IMG/VR virus record: IMGVR_UViG_3300021077_000037
Location: 1 to 32,812 of that record
Origin: a virus
DNA: 32,812 bases
Direction: 5' to 3' (one strand)
Shown here one piece after another: positions 56 to 32,812 of this stretch (position 1 is the first letter of the stretch; each line of letters starts with the position of its first letter). Both the position numbers and the translations under genes were made by a program. The notes under the pieces are model-generated. The model saw only the letters and a program-made list of their open reading frames with translations. It made no database searches and was not told the DNA's origin.

Positions 56-1706
56 TGGAGCACTTTACTTTGGCAGCGGTTCCATGTAATGGGTCAACGT
101 TTGAGGCGTAGAAATAGGTTGGGTTACTTGGGTCAATGATTGCCATGTGGCCCACATTAACACCGGCCCATGAAGCAGAAGCAACCAAGGTCATTGTGCT
201 AATTTGATACTTTAAAAAGTCGGCTGGAGAATTGGCGGATACGATATACAAATACGTTCCATCAGTACAGATAGATGCTTGTGCTCCAAAATTGATCGAG
301 GACGCATAATAATTGTAATTGGTTATGTCAGCAAGAGAAAATTGACGAATGGTTGAACCATCGGCAAAAACGACATATAACCATGTGCCATCTGTACACA
401 TTGACATTCCGTTTGAATACCCGGTTTGCTGTTTGGTCCAGTTTGCTGTCGAGTTTGTGAAATCACCGGTATCAACATTGCGTATTTGCAAAAGTGCATA
501 GGCATTACTGCCATCTGTTTTCTGGCCTACCATGTAAATGCTTCCACTGTAATACAAGGTTGCGTGGAATGTTTTCATTCCCGTATCAACCTGTTTGAGA
601 ATATTGATACGATAAGATGAGGTCAAAGAAGTATCCAATGGTTCAATCATCAAGGCCCCGTATTGACTTCCTCCGGCCAATGAGGCAGCACTAACCAGAG
701 TTCCACTGATGTTTAGTTGAACATCATAATTTGTCCCGCCAAGCTGTAATCCATTAGGAGCATAGGATGCTGATTTAGCATATGAAGCACTGGTGACACT
801 TACCGCTACGCTGGAAGTGGAGGCATAGGAGGCTGAGGTAGCAATACTTGCCGATTTGGCTACACTTGCGGTTCCAAACAATGAAGCAGTAATTGACGAA
901 CAACTTATTCCGTTGGAAGTAATGGCCACCGATGAAGTATTGGTGGTTCCTCCCACAAAGAGATAAAGATTTCCGTTGGGAGTGGAATTACCAATATAGA
1001 AATTGTTACCAGAACTTGCGGTATAATAAGCATATCCTTCATTGGGTCCACCAATCGTCCCGACGAATTGACTTGAATTTATGCCCACATCAACGAAATA
1101 CCCGCTGCTGGAGATAGTTCCTTTATCGTTGAGAACAATAAAATCCGTGGACGCACTATTGCTGCTGGTGACATTCTGGATGGAAATCTGCGCATAGTTC
1201 GGGATGTTGACCACCACGTTGATTGGAGCTTGGGACGAACCAGTGACTAATAGATTGCTTGTGGTAATAAATGTGCTGATAACATTGCTCCCACTGAAAT
1301 AACTTGCAGTGGCTGAAAGAGTAGAGAAACTGGCACTTGAAACAGTTCCGATGACGTTGGAAGCGGTGGTAAATGATGAGGTCAAGGCATATGAAGCACT
1401 GGTGACACTCAATGCGGTAACAGCAACACTTGACGTTGAAGCATAGGAGGCTGATGTAGCTGTTGCTGAAGTTGTAGAAATGCTTGCGGTTATTGCCCAA
1501 CTCGAAGTGATGGGATACGTTGAGGCAGTCGTTAGTGTTGTTCCTGCATTTCTACTATTAATTGCATAGGATGCGGTGTTGGAATAACTTGATGTTCCAA
1601 TTAATGAACCTGACGCAACCAATGTTGTATTAGCTGGAAAAATAATGGTGGATGCCGTATTTACAATTTTCCCGGTTGGATTTATTGTTAGTGTTTGAAC
1701 GCTCAT
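1..1706 (-). CDS. Large tail fibre / adhesin, N-terminal part (continues across the circular junction)
   Basis: The ATG at 1706 follows a GAAGG-like site and lies 25 bp after the upstream fibre gene. The frame is open to base 1 and continues at 32757, ending with TAA at 32181, for 760 residues in all. The N-terminal third is rich in Ser/Thr/Ala with ASYAxTASY-type repeats typical of fibrous tail proteins. The segment encoded by about 1-600 contains CTDGTWLYVVFADG and CTDGTYLYIVSANS, strands resembling beta-propeller blades. About 17 residues (LTTASTYPITSSWA and flanks) are shared with the upstream 830-residue fibre. The role is probably host-surface recognition at the distal tail. No catalytic motif was recognised. 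Confidence 0.85.
   Translation of the reverse strand, partial: MSVQTLTINPTGKIVNTASTIIFPANTTLVASGSLIGTSSYSNTASYAINSRNAGTTLTTASTYPITSSWAITASISTTSATATSASYASTSSVAVTALSVTSASYALTSSFTTASNVIGTVSSASFSTLSATASYFSGSNVISTFITTSNLLVTGSSQAPINVVVNIPNYAQISIQNVTSSNSASTDFIVLNDKGTISSSGYFVDVGINSSQFVGTIGGPNEGYAYYTASSGNNFYIGNSTPNGNLYLFVGGTTNTSSVAITSNGISCSSITASLFGTASVAKSASIATSASYASTSSVAVSVTSASYAKSASYAPNGLQLGGTNYDVQLNISGTLVSAASLAGGSQYGALMIEPLDTSLTSSYRINILKQVDTGMKTFHATLYYSGSIYMVGQKTDGSNAYALLQIRNVDTGDFTNSTANWTKQQTGYSNGMSMCTDGTWLYVVFADGSTIRQFSLADITNYNYYASSINFGAQASICTDGTYLYIVSANSPADFLKYQISTMTLVASASWAGVNVGHMAIIDPSNPTYFYASNVDPLHGTAAKVKCSNLTYTSSFVGGYFTDDAL
1495..1544. repeat. 50-bp repeat shared by the two fibre genes, copy 1
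   Basis: This 50-bp block matches 2600-2649 with one mismatch. It encodes TTLTTASTYPITSSWA in both large fibre genes. The near-identity at DNA level, against much looser similarity around it, suggests recent duplication or recombination between the two genes. Confidence 0.85.
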
Positions 1707-1731
1707 AAATTTATTTTATTAACCTTCATAG

Positions 1732-4224
1732 TTATGCTGGACCCGCTAAATATAAAGCAGTTACATCTGATTGAGATAAAACTTTAGAATAAACTCGTGC
1801 GTCATCAACATACATTGTTCCGTGATGATTATAATCACTATCATACCGAGAGTTTATGACCCAATATGTTGTAGATTCATTAAAGCCAACCGAAGCTATT
1901 GAAGAAGATGCACTCTGAAGCACACCATCCATATACATTAATATGATATTCTGAGTTCTATCTACAGTTGCTACTAAATGATGCCATGCCCCCGTTATTC
2001 CGGTGTTAGTTGATGCAAACGATATGTTGGAATTGGCATCCGCCACTTGTAAAAAAGCTTTGGATGTTTCTGGGTCCAGGAAAATTAAAATTCCAGAACT
2101 GTTTTGAATGTAAGCTCCCAAAAACCCAGGGTAATTTCCATCGGTTGATATTTTGTTTACCCATATACACAACGATATATCTCCCAACATGTGAATTTTT
2201 GTCCCAAGTGAAACCCAAGAGCCTGTTGTCAATGACAAGGCGGAACTATTACTCCCAACATATGAGTTCGTTATCCAAGAATATCCAGACCCTAGTATTA
2301 ACCCATGTCTTCGATAATTACTATAATCAGTTATATTACTTCCAGTTATATTGTCAAATTTCCACCATCCCTGAAGGTCAGCATCAACGAACTGGGAATT
2401 AAGGGTATAACTTGCGGTTGAAGCATAACTTGAACTTATATTGGATAATATTCCCGATTGGCTGTTATATGTCATTGGAACAATGGAGATATATTCACTG
2501 CCAGAGATTCCATTAACAGTTAAACCATAATATTGAGAACTATCTGTATCATAATAGGTTTGTATTTGGTTGTTATTAGACACATAACTAGCACTTACAG
2601 CCCAACTCGAAGTGATAGGATACGTTGAGGCAGTCGTTAGTGTTGTTCCACCACCCCCACCATTCAAGGCGAATGATGCGGTCAATGAATAACTTGACGA
2701 TATTGCATTGGTGACACTCCCACTATTGATAACATAACTTGCAGTCGAAGCATAAGAGGCTGAAGAAGGAACATATTCAACTCCATTGCGATATACTTTG
2801 TCGGTTATGTTAATGCTGCCACTAATATCAACCGCATATCTTCCATCTGGGAAAAGATTACGAATTCCAACAACTCCATTTGGGTGAAGTGAATTTAAAC
2901 AAATAAATCCATAGGTGTTTCCTTGGCCCTCACCATCAATAAACACATTGTCGGAGGCATCAATGCTAATATTTGGTCCGGCATTATCCAAAGTAATGGA
3001 TGAACCATAACCACTGGCATTGAAAGTTCCACTAATATCCATCGAATATTGAGGACTGGTTTGATTAATACCAATTTGATGATTAACTGTATCATCAGTA
3101 ATGTCAGGATAATTGCTTCCAGTTCCACCCCCGCCATTCATAGCAAATGATGCTGTCAAAGCATAACTTGAAGATATTGCTTTACTTGCGGTATAAGGTA
3201 AATTATTATATTTTAATGAACCGTTGAAATTGACATCGCCGTCAAATGACCCAGAGCCATATTTGACTGCAAATGCTGGACCGGGTCTGGTTGTGTCATC
3301 TCCGTTGTCAATTAGTTGACCAACCCAGAACGAAGATGATGGAGACATGTCAAAATCAAAATCGTTGTAGGGACAACGTACTGTGCCTCCACCTTGTCCC
3401 AGAACAAACAATTGATTAAGATACCCGACCGAGCCTCCATCATTTGCATTGTCAACCACCCGGAAAGTAGATTGACTTAAACTATAATCTGGATTATCAT
3501 TCAGTTCAAAGTAAAATCCAGAACCATAATCGTAAAATTTGGTATTAGGAATAACATTCAATTCACCAATAGTTAATTGTTTTGAATAACTTGATGTTGA
3601 AGCATAAGATGCTGAAATTGATGGGCTTGATGGAGCGTAAGAAGCACTTATTGCTTGACTGCTGGTTATTTGATAAGTTGACCCGGTGATTAGACTGGTT
3701 CCCCCGCCATTTATGGCATACGAAGCAGTCAGAGAATAACTTGAAGAGATTGCGTTGGTAACACTTCCACTATTCAACGTATAGGAGGCAGTTGAAGCAT
3801 AACTTGCGGTTCCGTTTGTTCCACGAACATACCGAGCATCGCTGGCCACGGTTGAATAAGCCACTTGTCCGGCAATTCCCGTGGAACCCGTGGGAACAAT
3901 TACACAACTCCAACCATTGATGGTCTGTCCATTGGTCTCATTGACTTGGATGTATTCAACTGGGTCCACCATTCCCGGAACATAAATCAATGGATTATTC
4001 TTATTCGCATTCGTCCATTTTATGCGATAAGTTCCCGGTGCCAGATTATAAAACCATTCAACCCCATCAGTACCAGAATAAGAAGAGGTATGTCCATAAC
4101 TTGCGGTTGGCTGACTGGCTGAACCGGAGAAATATGGAGGATACAATGCCTGCAAATCCATCTTGCTCCCAACCAAAGGTTGAGTCATATCCGTCGTTGC
4201 CAATGGAAAGAAAAGTGTGGTCAT
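1732..4224 (-). CDS. Tail fibre with C-terminal LamG/concanavalin-like lectin domain
   Basis: An 830-residue protein. The N-terminus (about 1-130) is probably the tail attachment region. The middle has at least four copies of a SASYASTASY / SSSYxLTASFAMNGGG type repeat, separated by segments ending in SPQYSMDISG and GRYAVDISG, a motif common in fibre shafts. The C-terminal ~200 residues, starting near LQGWWKFDNITGS and including ISLCIWVNK, WHHLVATVDR and MYMDGVLQS, look like a LamG/concanavalin A-like jelly-roll that usually binds glycans. The start overlaps the stop of the upstream gene (ATGA), implying translational coupling. It probably works with the following 760-residue fibre in receptor binding. 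The lectin call is from motif pattern only. Confidence 0.8.
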   Translation of the reverse strand: MTTLFFPLATTDMTQPLVGSKMDLQALYPPYFSGSASQPTASYGHTSSYSGTDGVEWFYNLAPGTYRIKWTNANKNNPLIYVPGMVDPVEYIQVNETNGQTINGWSCVIVPTGSTGIAGQVAYSTVASDARYVRGTNGTASYASTASYTLNSGSVTNAISSSYSLTASYAINGGGTSLITGSTYQITSSQAISASYAPSSPSISASYASTSSYSKQLTIGELNVIPNTKFYDYGSGFYFELNDNPDYSLSQSTFRVVDNANDGGSVGYLNQLFVLGQGGGTVRCPYNDFDFDMSPSSSFWVGQLIDNGDDTTRPGPAFAVKYGSGSFDGDVNFNGSLKYNNLPYTASKAISSSYALTASFAMNGGGGTGSNYPDITDDTVNHQIGINQTSPQYSMDISGTFNASGYGSSITLDNAGPNISIDASDNVFIDGEGQGNTYGFICLNSLHPNGVVGIRNLFPDGRYAVDISGSINITDKVYRNGVEYVPSSASYASTASYVINSGSVTNAISSSYSLTASFALNGGGGGTTLTTASTYPITSSWAVSASYVSNNNQIQTYYDTDSSQYYGLTVNGISGSEYISIVPMTYNSQSGILSNISSSYASTASYTLNSQFVDADLQGWWKFDNITGSNITDYSNYRRHGLILGSGYSWITNSYVGSNSSALSLTTGSWVSLGTKIHMLGDISLCIWVNKISTDGNYPGFLGAYIQNSSGILIFLDPETSKAFLQVADANSNISFASTNTGITGAWHHLVATVDRTQNIILMYMDGVLQSASSSIASVGFNESTTYWVINSRYDSDYNHHGTMYVDDARVYSKVLSQSDVTALYLAGPA
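2600..2649. repeat. 50-bp repeat shared by the two fibre genes, copy 2
   Basis: Partner of 1495-1544 with a single base difference. It lies in the SASY-repeat region of the 830-residue fibre, just after a GGGGG linker. Confidence 0.85.
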
Positions 4225-7227: not shown

Positions 7228-8523
7228 TTAGGCGTTTTTCAGCATTGAGTCAAATGCCGAAATAGCTTTTTCACGACTTGGTTTGGTGCTGGGCTGTGCC
7301 GAAAGAACCCGCATCGTGGAATTCATTGGAACAGTCTTGGGCATCTTGGTCACAATTGAGCGCAGGACGCCGAGGTCAATTGTATTGATGTCTTCCGCCG
7401 AGAGAGGAAGAACTTTTCCTTCCTTGCTGGCTTGTTCGACCAAAGACTTGCGTTCAAATTCGCTGGCTTTGGCAACCGTTTGAATTTTCTCGGCCTTGAA
7501 TGCTTGAAGTTCATCTTTCAATGACTTAAGTTCGGCGGAGAATTGCTTGAGTCCACCTTCCTCGGTGTTCTCTTTCTTGGTGATTTGACCGGGCTGTTCA
7601 GCCTCCAAGCCCTTGTATTCGGCAAGAAAAGCAAACAACACCCTCTCGGTGTCAGACTTTTCCAACCCCAGCTTGGTGGCTAATTCAGCGGCCATCTTTT
7701 TTACGATTGTATCGTTCATTGTATTATAATGAGGTATTTGAGCTTTGTATGCATCAGGAAATGACGCACTCAGACTCGTGGTTTTGGTTGTTGTGTCTTC
7801 TGCCGATTCTTTTGAATCGTCGGAAATCTTTTGGTCTGCCGAACAACGGGCACACATGCAATCAGGATGATGCAAAATGCCATATTCGTCCGGAGTAGCA
7901 CTCAGGTCTTTGATTTCGGCCTTCTCGTGCTCTTCAAGTTCCTTGGTTTTCTTCAAGGCTTCTTGGTCATCAATTGCCATTGGTTCAATCTCGGCGTCCA
8001 GTGGCTTGACTTCTTTTTCGGCTGACATTTTAGTAATCATATCATCAAATTTCTCAGTTGAATAAAATTTCAATCCGTACACCGCTCCGGTGGGAGTAAG
8101 TGCGGCGGAATGTAATCCAATCACACTTCCATGTTTATCCACCAATGCTGTGGGAGACAAATCTTTGTAATTCCTTGCATTTTTTTCTCCCAATGGAGTC
8201 CATTCAAGGTCTTCTAAATACAATCCGTCACCTTGCTTGATGACTGGTGTACCATAGGCAGCAATTGATTTGGGCTTCCCGGGCACATATTCTTTACTGC
8301 CCGGCACTGTGCAATGGTCGAAATCCAAAGGTACATCCACATTTCTGCCCGCTTTCAGTTGATTGGCCGAGAAAACACTCAAGGTTCTCTCATCCAAGTA
8401 CACTGGTCCATCCACCGTATCATTTTTACCCCAAGACATTATTTTAATTGCTTTGGGTAATGACTTTCCTCCCAATGCACCATTGGAAATCTCCGTGTTT
8501 AAAGCTTTCAGTGTGTAGCCCAT
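7228..8523 (-). CDS. Mu gpI-like capsid maturation protease fused to scaffold
   Basis: A 431-residue protein. The N-terminal ~150 residues match the Mu I-type protease pattern: VDVPLDFDH (His70), LEDLEWTPLG, then YKDLSPTALVDKHG with Ser123, then HSAALTPTGAVYG. The C-terminal half (about 285-431) is charged and helical, with a likely coiled coil around residues 325-360, and should be the scaffold. In between lies HPDCMCARC (about residue 218-227), a compact Cys/His cluster I do not know in this family. A Met at about residue 267 (MNDTIVKKM) could start a scaffold-only product as in Mu gpZ, but it lacks an obvious ribosome site. Confidence 0.78.
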   Translation of the reverse strand: MGYTLKALNTEISNGALGGKSLPKAIKIMSWGKNDTVDGPVYLDERTLSVFSANQLKAGRNVDVPLDFDHCTVPGSKEYVPGKPKSIAAYGTPVIKQGDGLYLEDLEWTPLGEKNARNYKDLSPTALVDKHGSVIGLHSAALTPTGAVYGLKFYSTEKFDDMITKMSAEKEVKPLDAEIEPMAIDDQEALKKTKELEEHEKAEIKDLSATPDEYGILHHPDCMCARCSADQKISDDSKESAEDTTTKTTSLSASFPDAYKAQIPHYNTMNDTIVKKMAAELATKLGLEKSDTERVLFAFLAEYKGLEAEQPGQITKKENTEEGGLKQFSAELKSLKDELQAFKAEKIQTVAKASEFERKSLVEQASKEGKVLPLSAEDINTIDLGVLRSIVTKMPKTVPMNSTMRVLSAQPSTKPSREKAISAFDSMLKNA

Positions 8524-20890: not shown

Positions 20891-22273
20891 TTAGAAATAA
20901 GAATATTGCCTTGCGGGGGCAGTTATTCTAAAAGCGTTGGTTACATTGCCCGAGTTGGGGTTACTCATAGCAATGAAGACTGCGTCAGCGATGTCGGGAC
21001 TATGGATGCCTCGGGAACGCATATCATCTTTGGATTCAAGTTTAAGTTTTCCTTTATCATTGATGATCTGTTTACGAGACAATATTTGCAGCCTGAATTC
21101 AGGATTGTTGGGAAGAATCGCCGAGCAGTTCTTTATTCTTTTAATTCCTTCAAACCATGCCTCGGCAATACAAGATGCATATTGGTCATTCTCCGGAGTC
21201 TTTCCTCCATGATATTCGTTTACGGTCCATCCCAAATCCTTGAGGCGGGATACAAATCCAATTCCCATACCATCAGCATCCAGACTTACTTTATCCTGAG
21301 TAATGCCGTGTGATTTGGCCAAAGCATTGAGATGCATGGCTATCTTGTCGCAGGCACGCATTACTTCTTTCTCTTTCCATTCTTCGATGATTTCTACTTT
21401 ATTGCCGATTCTCAATGCGATAACATTGCTATCACCACCAGCAGCCACATCAATTCCGACGTGTTTATCATTTCCCATTTCTTTGGGCGGGAATTCATAG
21501 CATCTATTGAGTTCGGGGAGAGAAATCAATCCATTCTCAATCTGACTGGCAAATTCAGCATAAATTGAAGATAACACCAATGGATGATTGGAACCCCATG
21601 CTTGCTCAAAGGTCTCAATATCTTTTTCGTCAAGCCACCAGCCATCCTTTTTCAGGCAATCTTTCTTGCGGAGAACAAAATGCTTGAAGGGCTTCATCGT
21701 ATTGGGTTCGGTGCAAGCGGAATAGAAGAATCCTTCTGGGGACAATGGACTGCCCATTATAAGCAAATATGTTGCATTACAACGACTTATAGCCATAAAA
21801 ATTGAATCATCAACCCCAGCAGCCTCATCTACAATAGCGATGAGGGGTCTCCCGGGTTGTTCGTGCCAGCCTTGGGCGGTTCCTTCATTTGAAGTAGCAA
21901 AGCCAATGTAGCGAGTTTCTCCATTGACTTTGATGCTATTATCAAGGAATTCCCAGTTGGGGAACAGATGGGCATATTGTTTAAGATACGGGATAAGTTG
22001 TTTGACAATCTGGCGATGAGTAGCCGAGGTTGAGATGACCAGTCCATTAAGCATTTCGATACTGTAGAGGATGGTAGTTACTGCTACTACACTGGATTTA
22101 CCCACTTCATTGGCACACCGAAAGCATACTTTTGTTTTAGGTGCCGAGAACAAAGAATCCATCACCGACGCTTGGGTGGGATGCAGATTCATCTTGAGGC
22201 GATATTTGGCATAAAGAGAAGGTTTTTCTCTCATCGCCTTCACCGCTTCAATCTGTTCATTGGTGTATGCCAT
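20891..22273 (-). CDS. Terminase large subunit
   Basis: A 460-residue DNA-packaging motor. The ATPase half has a Walker A variant CANEVGKSS (residues 53-61), Walker B LIAIVDE (144-150, catalytic Glu150) and coupling motif LLIMGSP (170-176). The nuclease half has the RNase H-like acidic residues GIDVAAGGDS (Asp275), LDADGMGIG (Asp332/334) and HSPDIADAV (Asp427/430). The length is normal. It docks on the portal and packages from a concatemer. Cut mode cannot be told, but a circularly permuted assembly fits headful packaging. Confidence 0.92.
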   Translation of the reverse strand: MAYTNEQIEAVKAMREKPSLYAKYRLKMNLHPTQASVMDSLFSAPKTKVCFRCANEVGKSSVVAVTTILYSIEMLNGLVISTSATHRQIVKQLIPYLKQYAHLFPNWEFLDNSIKVNGETRYIGFATSNEGTAQGWHEQPGRPLIAIVDEAAGVDDSIFMAISRCNATYLLIMGSPLSPEGFFYSACTEPNTMKPFKHFVLRKKDCLKKDGWWLDEKDIETFEQAWGSNHPLVLSSIYAEFASQIENGLISLPELNRCYEFPPKEMGNDKHVGIDVAAGGDSNVIALRIGNKVEIIEEWKEKEVMRACDKIAMHLNALAKSHGITQDKVSLDADGMGIGFVSRLKDLGWTVNEYHGGKTPENDQYASCIAEAWFEGIKRIKNCSAILPNNPEFRLQILSRKQIINDKGKLKLESKDDMRSRGIHSPDIADAVFIAMSNPNSGNVTNAFRITAPARQYSYF

Positions 22274-25576: not shown

Positions 25577-26596
25577 TTATAAAGCATTTTTATTGACGGG
25601 ATGGTCCATGGAGCCTTTGAATGTTATAGAAACTCCTATACGGTCACCGGGGATGGTTAACGCCCCATTTAATTCATTCCATACACGGTCAAATTCGTCT
25701 GCCATATTAAGGGGTTGGGCTGCTGCCGCCGTTTGGCGGGATGTAGCAAGCCCCGCTTCATAATCTCGCATGGAGACACTTGAAGTATGAACCAAAGAAG
25801 GTGAAACCAGACAGGCATTAAATGAAGTAACCAAATCCATTGAATTTACTTTAGTCACCGAAATTGAATCCACCGACCTTGAAGTAGGAACCAAGGGCTT
25901 CATAGTATCAGCCAGTCCAGTGGATTTTTTCCATATATTGGTTTGACGTTCAATGATTGTTTTTGTCTCCTGATTTATTTTATTGTAAATTGAACTGGAA
26001 GACCCGAAGTCATTGAAGTAATCCCCAAACAAAGATACCGAGCCAGACTTTTGTAAGTTAGGTTCAAGGTCAGTGCTGCCAGAATTAAGTAATAAGACAG
26101 AATCTTTTTTTTCTTCTTCTTTCTTAAAATCTTTTTTTTCTATCTTCTTTTTAGGTTCATGCCATGAACACTCTCTGTTCATGGCATGAACACCTACCTG
26201 TTCATGGCATGAACACTCTCTGTTCATGGCATGAACATAACTCGATTTGGGTCTGCGTTGTTTCTGCTTGGATTTTACGGATTTATTGTTCATGGCATGA
26301 ACAATCCATGCTACAAATTGGTCATACGAAAACTCTATTGTAATGGCTTTCTGGACCCCCGTCTTTTTGACAAACGGCCATACATTCAAGATTTTACTGA
26401 CTAACCCGACTGAAATACCAGTCTCTTTGGATAATTGTCGAACATGGAATACCCATCCTCGTCCCTCGTTTGCTTTGGTCAAATTGCTCTGATAAAGCAT
26501 TTTATCCAGAAGAACGTATTCGGAAGTGGTTAAAATAGCCAGCCATTCAAGCTGTGCTCGATTGTGTCGTTTTTCAGTATTTGATTTTACGCTCAT
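25577..26596 (-). CDS. Replication initiator, O-like winged-helix protein with internal origin
   Basis: A 339-residue protein. Residues ~15-85 look like a winged-helix DNA-binding domain (EWLAILTTSEYVLLDKMLYQ; WVFHVRQLSKETGISVGLVS, where the recognition-helix motif is SKETGISVGLVSKIL). Residues ~100-145 carry VHAMN repeats because the gene holds five 17-bp palindromes here. They are followed by a Lys/Glu-rich stretch and a disordered Ser/Thr/Asn-rich region, then a helical C-terminus (ADEFDRVWNELNG). The layout matches lambda O: DNA-binding N-domain, origin iterons inside the gene, then an AT-rich tract, C-terminal partner-binding region. With no polymerase or helicase in the genome, it should recruit the host replisome. 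Sequence identity to O was not tested. Confidence 0.7.
   Translation of the reverse strand: MSVKSNTEKRHNRAQLEWLAILTTSEYVLLDKMLYQSNLTKANEGRGWVFHVRQLSKETGISVGLVSKILNVWPFVKKTGVQKAITIEFSYDQFVAWIVHAMNNKSVKSKQKQRRPKSSYVHAMNRECSCHEQVGVHAMNRECSWHEPKKKIEKKDFKKEEEKKDSVLLLNSGSTDLEPNLQKSGSVSLFGDYFNDFGSSSSIYNKINQETKTIIERQTNIWKKSTGLADTMKPLVPTSRSVDSISVTKVNSMDLVTSFNACLVSPSLVHTSSVSMRDYEAGLATSRQTAAAAQPLNMADEFDRVWNELNGALTIPGDRIGVSITFKGSMDHPVNKNAL
26104..26152. other. Purine/pyrimidine AT-rich tract (likely DNA unwinding element)
   Basis: A nearly pure A+G run on the minus strand (poly-A with scattered G) lies directly next to the iterons, on the side toward the C-terminal codons. In lambda the AT-rich tract flanks the O iterons on the same side. 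Low thermal stability makes this the probable first melting site. Confidence 0.65.
26154..26303. repeat. Five palindromic origin iterons
   Basis: TGTTCATGGCATGAACA (8-bp arms around a G) occurs exactly at 26176, 26199, 26221 and 26287; a near copy with C as the centre and G first starts at 26154. Spacings are 22, 23, 22 and 66 bp, i.e. two or six helical turns, so the sites face the same side of the helix. They lie inside the initiator gene and are adjacent to the AT-rich tract, the standard composition of a replication origin. Confidence 0.85.
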
Positions 26597-26775: not shown

Positions 26776-26794
26776 ATGTTAGTTTGATTGATTG

Positions 26795-26807
26795 TTATAC
26801 CGTATAA
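26795..26807. promoter_or_regulatory. 13-bp palindrome in the minus-operon leader (possible operator)
   Basis: TTATAC-C-GTATAA, a perfect 6-bp dyad around one base, 20 bp upstream of the 56-residue gene. It overlaps a weak -10-like TATAAC. A repressor-sized target at this point would control the initiator operon. No matching -35 is convincing. Confidence 0.4.
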
Positions 26808-26847
26808 GTATAATACTGAAATTGAAAAATACTAAAATATTTGATAT

Positions 26848-26881
26848 AAAAAATCCCCGATAGAATTGCTTCTATCAGGGA
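26848..26881 (-). terminator. Intrinsic terminator on the minus strand, upstream of the initiator operon
   Basis: TCCC/GGGA plus GATAGAA/TTCTATC arms (one C-A mismatch) around a TTGC loop, followed on the minus strand by six T. It can stop minus-strand transcripts before the initiator operon, so either a short RNA ends here or incoming read-through is cut. Confidence 0.75.
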
Positions 26882-26886
26882 GTGAA

Positions 26887-26923
26887 ATCGAGCTTTGTTG
26901 GGAGCGTAAACCAACTGCTCGAT
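26887..26923 (-). ncRNA. Possible small structured RNA ending at the terminator
   Basis: On the minus strand a two-part hairpin (ATCGAGC/GCTCGAT with inner GTTGG/CCAAC) is followed by 5 unpaired bases and then the terminator. TTGAAC (26952-26947) with 17 bp and TATTAC (26929-26924) could be a promoter, but transcription would begin within the hairpin, so the transcript start is uncertain. The hairpin could also be a protein site. Confidence 0.35.
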
Positions 26924-27023
26924 GTAATATATGTATGGTTCCAAATGTTCAAAATATTTTTTAACTATTTTTTACGTTTTAATATTTTTAAATCATAGTT
27001 ATATCTGTAACAAAAACTCCTAT

Positions 27024-27192: not shown

Positions 27193-27672
27193 ATGGACAT
27201 CACCCCCGACCTCCTGCTTCGGCTCAATAACACTTTCAAAGGCATATGTTCCCGCTGTAGCGACCCCCGGAACCGGCACTATGGTGCCCGGGGCATCTCG
27301 GTTGACAAACGGTGGGAAAAGAACCCATTGGTCTTTATCGTCTTTTGTTTAAAGAATGGCTGGAAACCCGGACTGGAAGTGGACCGGATTGATAACGATA
27401 AAGATTATACCCCCAAAAATGTTCAATTTGTGTCACACTGTATAAATTTAGCCAATAGAGGTCATGGAAACCTCAAAACTGGCTTTGGAGGAAGAACTTA
27501 CAAATTACCGCTGAATATATCTTTTGCCAAATCCCGCAAATACCGCCAGAAGCCCTATTGCGTGGTTGTTAAGAGGGAGGGGCGTACTTTCAACGTTGGG
27601 TCGTTCAAAACGCTCCCAGAGGCCGTCAGAGCACGGGACGAGGCCCTTAGACGCATTGATGATAAGCAATAA
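27193..27672 (+). CDS. HNH-like endonuclease with AP2 DNA-binding domain
   Basis: A 159-residue protein. The N-terminal half has the pattern of the phage HNH/AP2 family: SRCSDPRNRHYGARGISVDKR, then LEVDRIDNDKDYTPKNVQFV, 'W...NG...GL..DRiDN.g.Y.peN.r.v'. The C-terminal AP2-like region is YCVVVKREGRTFNVGSF and VRARDEALRRI. Such nucleases are typically mobile endonucleases. No interrupted gene was identified around it, so it is free-standing. Confidence 0.68.
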   Translation: MDITPDLLLRLNNTFKGICSRCSDPRNRHYGARGISVDKRWEKNPLVFIVFCLKNGWKPGLEVDRIDNDKDYTPKNVQFVSHCINLANRGHGNLKTGFGGRTYKLPLNISFAKSRKYRQKPYCVVVKREGRTFNVGSFKTLPEAVRARDEALRRIDDKQ

Positions 27673-27676
27673 GCAT

Positions 27677-27943
27677 ATGGACACACCATCCATGCCTGCA
27701 ACGAACATGAGCCTTAATCTGGAACTCCTACGAAAGAAGAAAGTGGCTCTCTGTGGCCAGAGTGTCACCGTTGAGCAATTCTCGGTCAAGGATGATCTGG
27801 CAGCAATTCTTTCCTTGAGTTTGAAAGGGGAGACGGTGAACAAAAAAAGTATCCTGATCGAGAAAATGAAGACTGCCCTGCCCTTTGTGAGTGAGGAAAT
27901 CAAACCATTTGCGGAAGCAATCTTACAAATCTACCAAAAGTAA
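27677..27943 (+). CDS. Unknown small protein (88 residues)
   Basis: ATG 27677 lies 4 bp after the HNH-AP2 stop. It is helical and mixed-charge (SLNLELLRKKKVALCGQSVT, KKSILIEKMKTALPFVSEEI). No motif recognised. Longer upstream frames overlap the HNH gene and are unlikely. Confidence 0.5.
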   Translation: MDTPSMPATNMSLNLELLRKKKVALCGQSVTVEQFSVKDDLAAILSLSLKGETVNKKSILIEKMKTALPFVSEEIKPFAEAILQIYQK

Positions 27944-28219
27944 AACTCCCACCACAAGGCAGGAGTTCATCCATTGCCATTGCCGCCGAGGAGAAAAACG
28001 GGGGTTTAATGGCAATGGAAATTGGAAAAGTGAAGCAAAGGAAAAAAATGCTGAACATCCATGCTTCACTCACTGGTGCGTCATTGATAATACCATTGCG
28101 GTCTATCTCGGCACCAGATTAAAATTGATGAGGTCCAGAACATTGCTCCGTTCATCAGCATCAATATTCAAGACCTCCATTGAGAGTCATTCTCTCGTTG
28201 CCGATAACTATACACAACC
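27944..28219 (+). other. 276-bp interval dense in inverted repeats, no clear gene
   Basis: Perfect arms: TCCATTGCCATT/AATGGCAATGGA (27970-27981, 28008-28019); AGTGAAGCA/TGCTTCACT (28029-28037, 28062-28070); CTGGTGC/GCACCAG (28073-28079, 28111-28117) with inner GATA/TATC and ACC/GGT pairs; ATTGATG/CATCAAT; GAGGTC/GACCTC; GAGAG/CTCTC (28182-28196). The first pair is very unlikely by chance. Possible coding: an open frame 27891-28223 (110 codons, ends with ATGA over the HNH start) and a 37-codon frame from 28009; neither has a convincing start. It could be a structured leader RNA or a regulatory site for the next gene. Confidence 0.6.
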
Positions 28220-28531
28220 ATGACCAAAAATACAAAGATATTGACACCCAAGGAAAAAAGAAAAAAAGACCGGGAATTTTCCAAATTAATTCATGCTCGT
28301 GATAACCGAACCTGTCAACGTTGTGGACGCACCAATTGTAAGATTGATGTATCCCACTGCATACCAAGAGAAGTGTTGGCAACCCGGTGGCTGGAAGAAA
28401 ATTGTGTATCCCTTTGCGTCAAATGCCATAAATTTGGGTCAAAATCATGGCACAAAAATCCACTTTCGTCGTATCAATGGTTTCGGGAAAAGTATGGTGA
28501 AGAGAGAATCCAATTCTTATTGTCTTTTTAA
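28220..28531 (+). CDS. HNH endonuclease, NinG-like
   Basis: A 103-residue protein. Zinc-binding CQRCGRTNCK and CVKCHKF surround SHCIPREVL and TRWLEENCVSLCV. The 'C..Cg......SH.ipr.....l..d..N....C..CH' layout fits HNH nucleases of the lambda NinG type, which act in phage recombination. A basic N-terminus (KEKRKKDREFSKLIHARD) may bind DNA. It converges on and overlaps the minus-strand gene by 4 bp. Confidence 0.7.
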   Translation: MTKNTKILTPKEKRKKDREFSKLIHARDNRTCQRCGRTNCKIDVSHCIPREVLATRWLEENCVSLCVKCHKFGSKSWHKNPLSSYQWFREKYGEERIQFLLSF

Positions 28532-28842
28532 AGCAAGTCTTTGGAAGAATTGACCAAATTGATGATGAAGCCCGGAAACATCGCTTGTGCTTTACGGATG
28601 GCTTGCTGGTCATGCCATTCTTGAGGTTTATCGTCATGGTATATGGTCCGGACAAATGACTTGGTACGAGAGCGAAGCGATTGAACGACGGTATCCATTT
28701 CTTTTTTCTTCAGTTTGAAATCATCAATTCCCTTGTACATATTATGGTTAAAAATAATGACATTACTTTTTATATTTTGATACATTGGATTGGTCGGGAC
28801 CACATTGAAATCGGCTTCCAATTCGGAAAATGGATTATTCAT
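28528..28842 (-). CDS. Unknown protein with leaderless-type promoter
   Basis: A 104-residue protein, helix-rich with a lysine-rich middle (KLKKKEMDTVVQSLRSRTKS) and no recognised domain. TTGAAT-17-TATTAT lies so that transcription would start at or within a base of its ATG. It is the only minus-strand gene in the block of plus genes and faces the HNH gene tail-to-tail. It is probably an early regulator, but nothing in the sequence proves this. Confidence 0.55.
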   Translation of the reverse strand: MNNPFSELEADFNVVPTNPMYQNIKSNVIIFNHNMYKGIDDFKLKKKEMDTVVQSLRSRTKSFVRTIYHDDKPQEWHDQQAIRKAQAMFPGFIINLVNSSKDLL

Positions 28843-29498: not shown

Positions 29499-29530
29499 AT
29501 ATGAAACACGAAACTACAAATCCAAACCTA
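29499..29530 (+). repeat. 32-bp direct repeat at gene starts, copy 1
   Basis: From two bases before ATG 29501 through codon 10 this matches 29878-29909 with one mismatch (Thr to Ile codon). Confidence 0.88.
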
Positions 29531-29851
29531 CCATTGACTACCCATAAATTGGCTCATCAGTTGCGGGAACGTCAAATCCATCATGCTATTGATATGGCAC
29601 CGGCAAAAGAAATAGGAATTGCGAAATTCCGTCAAATCGTTTCGTCACTTTCAGATGAAGAAATAATTATGTCCTATCTCACTGATTCCAGAACTCAGGC
29701 ATTGCTCCATGTGGATTGTGACTATGCTTATATCCAAGAGCAGTGTGACCGTGGAAGAATATATTCGTTTTCTGATTTTGACGAGATATTGTCCCATGGA
29801 TGCTTTTGGTTTGCCAACCGTTTGGCAAATCTGGTTCTTTTCGAGAAATAA
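29501..29851 (+). CDS. Unknown early protein (116 residues), paralogous N-terminus
   Basis: Starts MKHETTNPNLPLTTHKLAHQ, then helical sequence with KFRQIVSSLSDEEIIMSYL and a Cys pair around DCDYAYIQEQCD. No domain recognised. Its first 30 bases recur at the start of the next gene with one difference. First gene of a plus-strand set of four running to 30880. Confidence 0.6.
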   Translation: MKHETTNPNLPLTTHKLAHQLRERQIHHAIDMAPAKEIGIAKFRQIVSSLSDEEIIMSYLTDSRTQALLHVDCDYAYIQEQCDRGRIYSFSDFDEILSHGCFWFANRLANLVLFEK

Positions 29852-29877: not shown

Positions 29878-29909
29878 ATATGAAACACGAAACTATAAAT
29901 CCAAACCTA
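29878..29909 (+). repeat. 32-bp direct repeat at gene starts, copy 2
   Basis: Matches 29499-29530 with one mismatch. The promoter of copy 1 is not duplicated here, so what is repeated is the translation-start region and first ten codons. Confidence 0.88.
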
Positions 29910-30386
29910 ACATCAAATGGAAATGATATGATGACCGCACACGACCTCCGAGTCCGACAAAAAAGATTGGAAGCGCTATCCAACCACATTAACACCCTGT
30001 GCCAAGATGAATGGAAAGACTTCCCATATGAATGCACGCCAGACTTCTTGGACAAGGAAGGTATTACTGACGAGGAATTGGCATCGTTTGCCGAAGACCG
30101 CCACAGTATTGATGACCGAGTAGCAGAGATTGCCGATGACGTGCCCCAAGCCCACGAATGGACACAAGAGGAAGTTACGGAATTAGCGTTCCGAAACCTT
30201 GATGTCCGGAGGATTGACATCAAGGCAAGAGTACTGTTAGATAGTCGGTGTTTGCTGCGTCTCGATGGAACATTGATCGTTCAATTTTATGTCCAATACC
30301 CGGATGGAGATGGCGATGTGATGGAAGAATGGATTGAGCAGCAATTTCCTTCCGTTCATGAGTTCATTAAATGTTGCTGGGCGTAA
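29880..30386 (+). CDS. Unknown acidic protein (168 residues)
   Basis: Shares the N-terminus MKHETINPNL with the upstream gene, then diverges. It is strongly acidic and helical (DKEGITDEELASFAEDRHSI, VAEIADDVPQAHEWTQEEVT), with a C-terminal beta part (LRLDGTLIVQFYVQYPDGDG). Acidic small early phage proteins often inhibit host DNA-binding proteins by mimicking DNA; that is a possibility only. No family recognised. Confidence 0.6.
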   Translation: MKHETINPNLTSNGNDMMTAHDLRVRQKRLEALSNHINTLCQDEWKDFPYECTPDFLDKEGITDEELASFAEDRHSIDDRVAEIADDVPQAHEWTQEEVTELAFRNLDVRRIDIKARVLLDSRCLLRLDGTLIVQFYVQYPDGDGDVMEEWIEQQFPSVHEFIKCCWA

Positions 30387-32180: not shown

Positions 32181-32812
32181 TTATGCCAAACTCGCACTTG
32201 TCCAATTGGTTCCGTTGTAAATGTACAAAATATTCGTTGACGCATTCATTTGCATATAGGCCGAGCCTACATTTGCGACCGGAGTTAATGCTTTAGTTGA
32301 ACTTGAATACGGCAACTGAAACAATGTTGCTGCGACCACGGAACTTGCTGACAGAGTGCTAGCTACATTCAAGTATGAACATCCAACGTCACCATAAACG
32401 TCCAAAGCATAACGAGGATTGTTGTTATTGACCCCCATGCGGTTATAGTAGGGAGCAATTTGATAAAGATTCTGGTCATTGTTATACCAATTGGTGATGA
32501 ACATTTTACCATTGTTTGTAAGCATCAATTCATTCGGAGCACAATAGAAGTCAAAGTAATATCTTAATGGAACATTTAGATTTCCGTTTTGATATACCAC
32601 GAAATATCCATTCGGGCTACCGTTGTAAATGTTTGTTCCATCCCCCCAAATACCATATGAAACATCGGCAGATTGAGTCGTGAACGTAAAGCTAGAGGTA
32701 TTGAATACTGTAATAATTCCTAGAGACTCATTACCAAGATACAAATTTCCATTTTGAATCAATGCGTCATCAGTGAAATAACCACCCACAAATGAACTGG
32801 TGTAAGTCAAAT
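32181..32812 (-). CDS. Large tail fibre / adhesin, C-terminal part (joins the gene at 1706)
   Basis: Continues the 760-residue fibre across the junction: the codon ending the right edge corresponds to base 53 on the left and is in the same frame. Contains a further propeller-like strand (IWGDGTNIYNGSPNGYFVVY), then NPRYALDVYGDVGCSYLNVA, a motif typical before fibre tips, and an Asn/Thr/Tyr-rich end (MNASTNILYIYNGTNWTSAS). Stop TAA at 32183-32181, 99 bp upstream of the holin-like ATG at 32081. Confidence 0.85.
   Translation of the reverse strand, partial: LTYTSSFVGGYFTDDALIQNGNLYLGNESLGIITVFNTSSFTFTTQSADVSYGIWGDGTNIYNGSPNGYFVVYQNGNLNVPLRYYFDFYCAPNELMLTNNGKMFITNWYNNDQNLYQIAPYYNRMGVNNNNPRYALDVYGDVGCSYLNVASTLSASSVVAATLFQLPYSSSTKALTPVANVGSAYMQMNASTNILYIYNGTNWTSASLA
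32758..32812. repeat. Terminal direct repeat, right copy
   Basis: Exact copy of bases 1-55. See the left copy; together they close the genome. Confidence 0.93.

Follow-up and report, generated by a model that had tools for sequence, protein, structure and literature searches.

The HEARO (omega) RNA is found in association with IscB. The available text of PMC12197685, PMC5931967 and PMC2984593 describes CfrI of cyanophage S-PM2 as an antisense RNA of ~225 nt that links psbA to a homing endonuclease gene, and that of PMC5869508 and PMC12197685 describes OOP of phage lambda as an RNA of 77 nt that overlaps cII by 52 bases. Here we describe a gap of 276 bases (27944-28219) between two plus-strand genes of a phage, the second of which encodes an HNH protein. 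The gap is filled with hairpins, and it may well, with close to an even chance, encode a structured non-coding RNA of ~265 nt on the minus strand, antisense to the spacer between the two genes. The features are as follows (energies in kcal/mol).

7228-8523: head maturation protease
20891-22273, minus strand: large terminase subunit (TerL)
27677-27943, plus strand: up89, upstream ORF of 88 aa without known relative
27936-28200, minus strand: proposed structured RNA of ~265 nt, both ends inferred
27943-27968, minus strand: H1, terminator-like hairpin of 11 pairs, then TACTTTTGGT; -14.9 on minus vs -8.7 on plus
27970-28019, no strand assigned: H2, perfect 12-bp arms; -26.7 on plus, better than -22.8 on minus
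28029-28070, no strand assigned: H3, perfect 9-bp arms; -12.9 on plus, -14.6 on minus
28073-28117, no strand assigned: H4, perfect 7-bp arms; -16.1 on plus, -15.6 on minus
28130-28177, minus strand: H5, 16-nt arms, 81% Watson-Crick complementary; -19.8 on minus, -11.6 on plus
28182-28196, no strand assigned: H6, 5-bp hairpin, weakest of the six, which would come first in the minus-strand RNA
28207-28235 (approximate), minus strand: weak promoter-like site, TTGTAT-17-TATAGT, 8 of 12 positions matched; TATAGT ends at ~28207, just before H6
28220-28531, plus strand: HNH gene, NinG/Rap-like, 103 aa (PHROG 5034, E 1.4e-11)

The window, that is the whole stretch of DNA analysed, is record IMGVR_UViG_3300021077_000037 over its full 32,812 bases. 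Its first and last 55 bp (1-55 and 32758-32812) form a perfect direct repeat, by which the record looks complete and which suggests a complete genome. The best-ranked matches of TerL include Akkermansia phages (identity 27-30%). A TerL alignment used as query gave at least 507 relatives from 599 stretches examined in IMG/VR (the best 80 were retained), and two Akkermansia loci from 74 stretches in genomes. Among the IMG/VR matches listed, the best-segment identity of the TerL relatives is only 34-38%, so close kin were not found in the searchable data. As homologue queries, TerL alone (in IMG/VR and in genomes) and a TerL fragment led nowhere. The phage is unclassified and has no close relatives in the data that could be searched. 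Elsewhere in the genome, many degenerate repeats of 20-56 nt, several of them 63 nt apart, lie at 753-3819, partly inside an ORF (1732-4224) that ends in a Laminin_G_3 domain; together they are probably a repetitive tail protein. Two successive plus-strand ORFs open with a near-identical 36 nt (29499-29534 and 29878-29913; MKHET-NPNL), as if one gene start had been copied.

The boundaries of the gap given in the first-pass annotation are exact: the stop of up89 is at 27943 and the start of the HNH ORF at 28220. No locus in IMG/VR and no phage record matches up89, which finds a PHROG only at E 0.39. The HNH ORF scores 20.6 bits against Pfam HNH, marginally below the cut-off of 21.4. A minus-strand ORF of 104 aa (28528-28842) converges on the HNH gene, the two ends overlapping by 4 bp. 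The gap itself matches no known RNA or protein family. Its ORFs of 110, 37 and 57 aa reach at best E 0.27 against PHROG and match no Pfam family at E<=1; codon-usage scores are mixed, with no consistent frame, a weak test given that HNH itself scores -0.04 and the neighbour 27193-27672 only 0.04. The idea that a small hydrophobic ORF on the minus strand (27900-28073) encodes a type I toxin was rejected, as the ORF has no family match. The search of the 276 bases against Rfam that the annotation had proposed matched no family, and none reaches its gathering threshold anywhere in the window; at E<=10, the region 27900-28300 has seven matches, all far below their own thresholds and none credible. 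HEARO, the omega RNA of IscB, is absent from these seven, and a group I intron carrying the HNH gene was rejected on its absence from the Rfam covariance-model matches.

The hairpin structure of the gap is real and rare. Both of the long inverted repeats noticed at the outset, a perfect 12-bp pair (27970-27981 / 28008-28019) and a 9-bp pair (28029-28037 / 28062-28070), are present, and the statement that the former is far beyond chance holds, no such pair being seen in 2000 shuffles. Counting perfect arms of at least 7 with spacers of 3-60, the gap has five (shuffle mean 0.89), matched in 4 of the same 2000 shuffles; its two arms of at least 9 are matched in one. The earlier count of at least six inverted repeats packed into the gap is borne out by six hairpins, beyond chance in shuffles. 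The packing is thus as described, but the nesting is not: once folded, the hairpins follow one after another, and what looked like nesting is alternative pairings or shifted registers of the CCATTGCCATTGCC arm. Folded as RNA, 27940-28219 gives z -5.71 on the plus and -5.65 on the minus strand, with 0/200 shuffles as good on either. H3-H6, taken without H1 and H2, still score (z -3.83 and -3.62, 0/200 shuffles each), so the signal is not owed to one hairpin. By both-strand sum, the window starting at 27931 (-6.83 / -8.15) ranks second among 467 windows of 140 nt, the sole higher one starting at 26111 within a palindromic array. The gap is not alone in this genome: four of 232 other 276-nt windows equal or exceed it in arms of 7 or more, two of them holding 12-bp arms too. 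The repeat search placed further long arms in a palindromic repeat array at 26151-26318. Within it, at 26154-26306, lie five TGTTCATGGCATGAACA-like palindromes with spacings of 22, 23, 22 and 66, inside a minus-strand ORF (25577-26596); the array is iteron-like, and perhaps an origin inside an initiator gene.

Three features speak for the minus strand: the H1 terminator, the continuity of H1 and H5 through G-U pairs, and the promoter-like site. On the minus strand H1 is an unbroken 11-pair stem with a T-rich tail, whereas on the plus strand the stem is broken twice and lacks a T tract; the terminator-like hairpin therefore exists on one strand only. A 3' intrinsic terminator is accordingly found, as a sequence match, at 27968-27943 on the strand antisense to the HNH gene. 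The window has 26 terminator-like sites, in two sets of 13, and these totals are not above chance (13 vs 13.7 and 13 vs 14.6 in shuffles); the longest two stems belong to H1 and to a site at 26881-26854, both on the minus strand. H5 is nearly continuous on the minus strand via G-U pairs and interrupted on the plus. The gain on the minus strand is 6.2 kcal/mol for H1 and 8.2 kcal/mol for H5. Over 27944-28202 the fold has z -6.08 on minus and -4.88 on plus (0/200 shuffles each), and H5-H6 alone have -3.6 and -2.39; the whole-gap z (27940-28219) is equal on the two strands, and the plus strand gives the better fold for H2 and, by a small margin, for H4 and H6. Promoter-like sites matching 8 of 12 or better occur often, with 9 rows in 801 nt of minus strand (~1 per 90 nt), so the one upstream of H6 is not significant alone. 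The first-pass annotation had offered three guesses, a structured RNA, a leader that regulates the HNH gene and the remnant of a mobile element. The structured RNA survives as the best of these, but with its strand changed, for the three features place it probably opposite to the HNH gene.

We infer from these features how such an RNA would be made and act. Transcription would start near 28200 at the weak sigma-70-type site, the RNA would fold as six serial hairpins from H6 to H1, and it would end at the intrinsic terminator made by H1. It would be antisense to the spacer of a plus transcript joining up89 to the HNH gene. Its most likely action would be in cis, either by pairing with the up89-HNH transcript, making this a target for RNase III, or through interference with transcription, and the outcome would be that HNH expression is separated or damped. 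As a variant, a longer antisense transcript may have its start upstream of 28528-28842, a minus-strand gene, and use the same terminator. Between that ORF and H1 there is no terminator-like site on the minus strand, so transcription of the ORF could continue through HNH in antisense.

Searches for the element elsewhere gave no credible homologue. By blastn the gap has no homologue in phages and plasmids, and among 87 loci no credible match (best E 0.70). The remnant of a mobile element that the annotation had envisaged finds no backing here, as neither phages nor plasmids nor the fetched relatives gave a DNA match. A covariance model of H3-H1, weak in that it was built from one sequence given twice, recovered only the window itself credibly among 88 sources (L007 and L008 left out; next best E 2.2); in two sets of whole records, of 7 and 19, it gave no match at E<=1. 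Exact arm patterns run over IMG/VR gave no hit for H2 or H1 and 10 contigs for H3. These 10 share neither DNA nor any of 13 tested proteins with the window, and the model reaches at best E 1.5 there; they are judged chance, not relatives.

The main competitor to the minus-strand RNA is an intercistronic RNA on the plus strand, within the up89-HNH mRNA, that would serve in processing or stability or would, as a leader, restrict translation of HNH. We consider this possible but rather unlikely. Both neighbouring genes are on the plus strand, the plus-strand fold is as rare as given above (z -5.71), and the strongest hairpin, H2, has its better fold there; moreover, the H2 loop holds GAGGAG and an H2 arm holds the start of the 37-aa ORF (28009-28122). 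H1 and H5, however, are interrupted on this strand, and no ribosome-binding sequence is seen beside the HNH ATG, although such a sequence is present in only 8 of the 36 ORFs listed, so the phage makes little use of them. Loci of HNH relatives also speak against it: a structured region upstream is found in 0/8, with z from -1.01 to +1.86 over both strands. The eight amount to about three independent cases (L002-L004 have the same protein; L022, L045, L061 and L066 have near-identical proteins), and their gene starts are approximate, the start of the match being used for L002-L004, in which no start codon was found, and that of L005 being doubtful. A structured leader as a general trait of this HNH family is rejected on this result, and the leader proposed for the HNH gene in particular, lacking both a ribosome-binding sequence before the ATG and a structured counterpart in the relatives, is without specific support.

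That the gap is a decayed gene remnant, for example a second copy of up89 disrupted by frameshifts, in which the hairpins are incidental or later, appears improbable. A frameshift-tolerant alignment of the gap against up89 scores 39, a score reached by 3/200 shuffles, 6/1000 windows drawn at random from the fetched loci and 1/230 genome windows, and its best stretch, 28103-28200, resembles the up89 C-terminus. The likeness is suggestive, not convincing: the aligned stretch is short, and as the likeness was first picked by eye the fractions overstate it. Codon scores show no consistent frame, weak as that test is, and H1-H3, the strongest part of the structure, would be left unexplained. Lower still do we rate a DNA element, a protein-binding, replication or recombination site at which the palindromes act as DNA, and we regard it as very unlikely. 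The gap does fold as DNA (z -5.94, 0/200 shuffles as good), and the genome has another palindrome array; yet the hairpins vary in sequence instead of repeating one site, an origin has its better candidate in the iteron-like array at 26154-26306, and the subset of proteins searched includes no integrase.

Among these readings the minus-strand antisense RNA remains the best explanation. The structure is well supported and the product putative; if transcribed, the gap would give a defined object with ends, hairpins and a terminator. About 1 kb away, at 26854-26923 on the minus strand between divergent genes, a hairpin is followed by a terminator-like stem of 12 pairs with TTTTTT, the longest in the window; the fold of 26780-26960 on this strand has z -5.71, and the stretch is a candidate for a second small RNA or a leader terminator. 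Because of this second structured minus-strand stretch, the phage may run a layer of antisense RNA over its plus-strand early genes. In its broadest form, we would thus have an undescribed class of phage structured non-coding RNA, with six serial hairpins and a terminator, antisense beside an HNH endonuclease gene, together with such a layer; this is a speculation that we think unlikely to hold in full.

The locus would resemble HEARO, the omega RNA with IscB, in having a structured RNA beside an HNH gene, but no HEARO match was found at E<=10, and the 103-aa HNH protein here finds its matches in NinG/HNH families. With OOP of lambda, as with sar of P22, the proposed RNA would share the plan of a small RNA read leftward from a promoter of its own (here a weak candidate) to a terminator hairpin, antisense in a rightward early operon, as laid out in the available text of PMC5869508 and PMC12197685. 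The comparison is of layout, not sequence, and unlike the 77 nt of OOP the gap RNA would have ~265 nt and six hairpins. CfrI differs, in what the cited sources relate, in having been detected as RNA, whereas the gap RNA is predicted from sequence; the antisense partners of CfrI are psbA and the endonuclease gene, whereas here no psbA and no intron were found, and the proposed RNA in its short form would extend over just a few bases of up89. Like CfrI (available text of PMC12197685 and PMC2984593), the gap RNA would be phage-encoded, antisense and located between a gene and an endonuclease gene. Compared by layout, not sequence, CfrI would be the nearest arrangement described in these sources, and the gap RNA may tentatively be counted with the known phage cis-antisense small RNAs. 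If it is transcribed, a phage without close relatives joins the few cases of antisense RNA beside a phage endonuclease gene.
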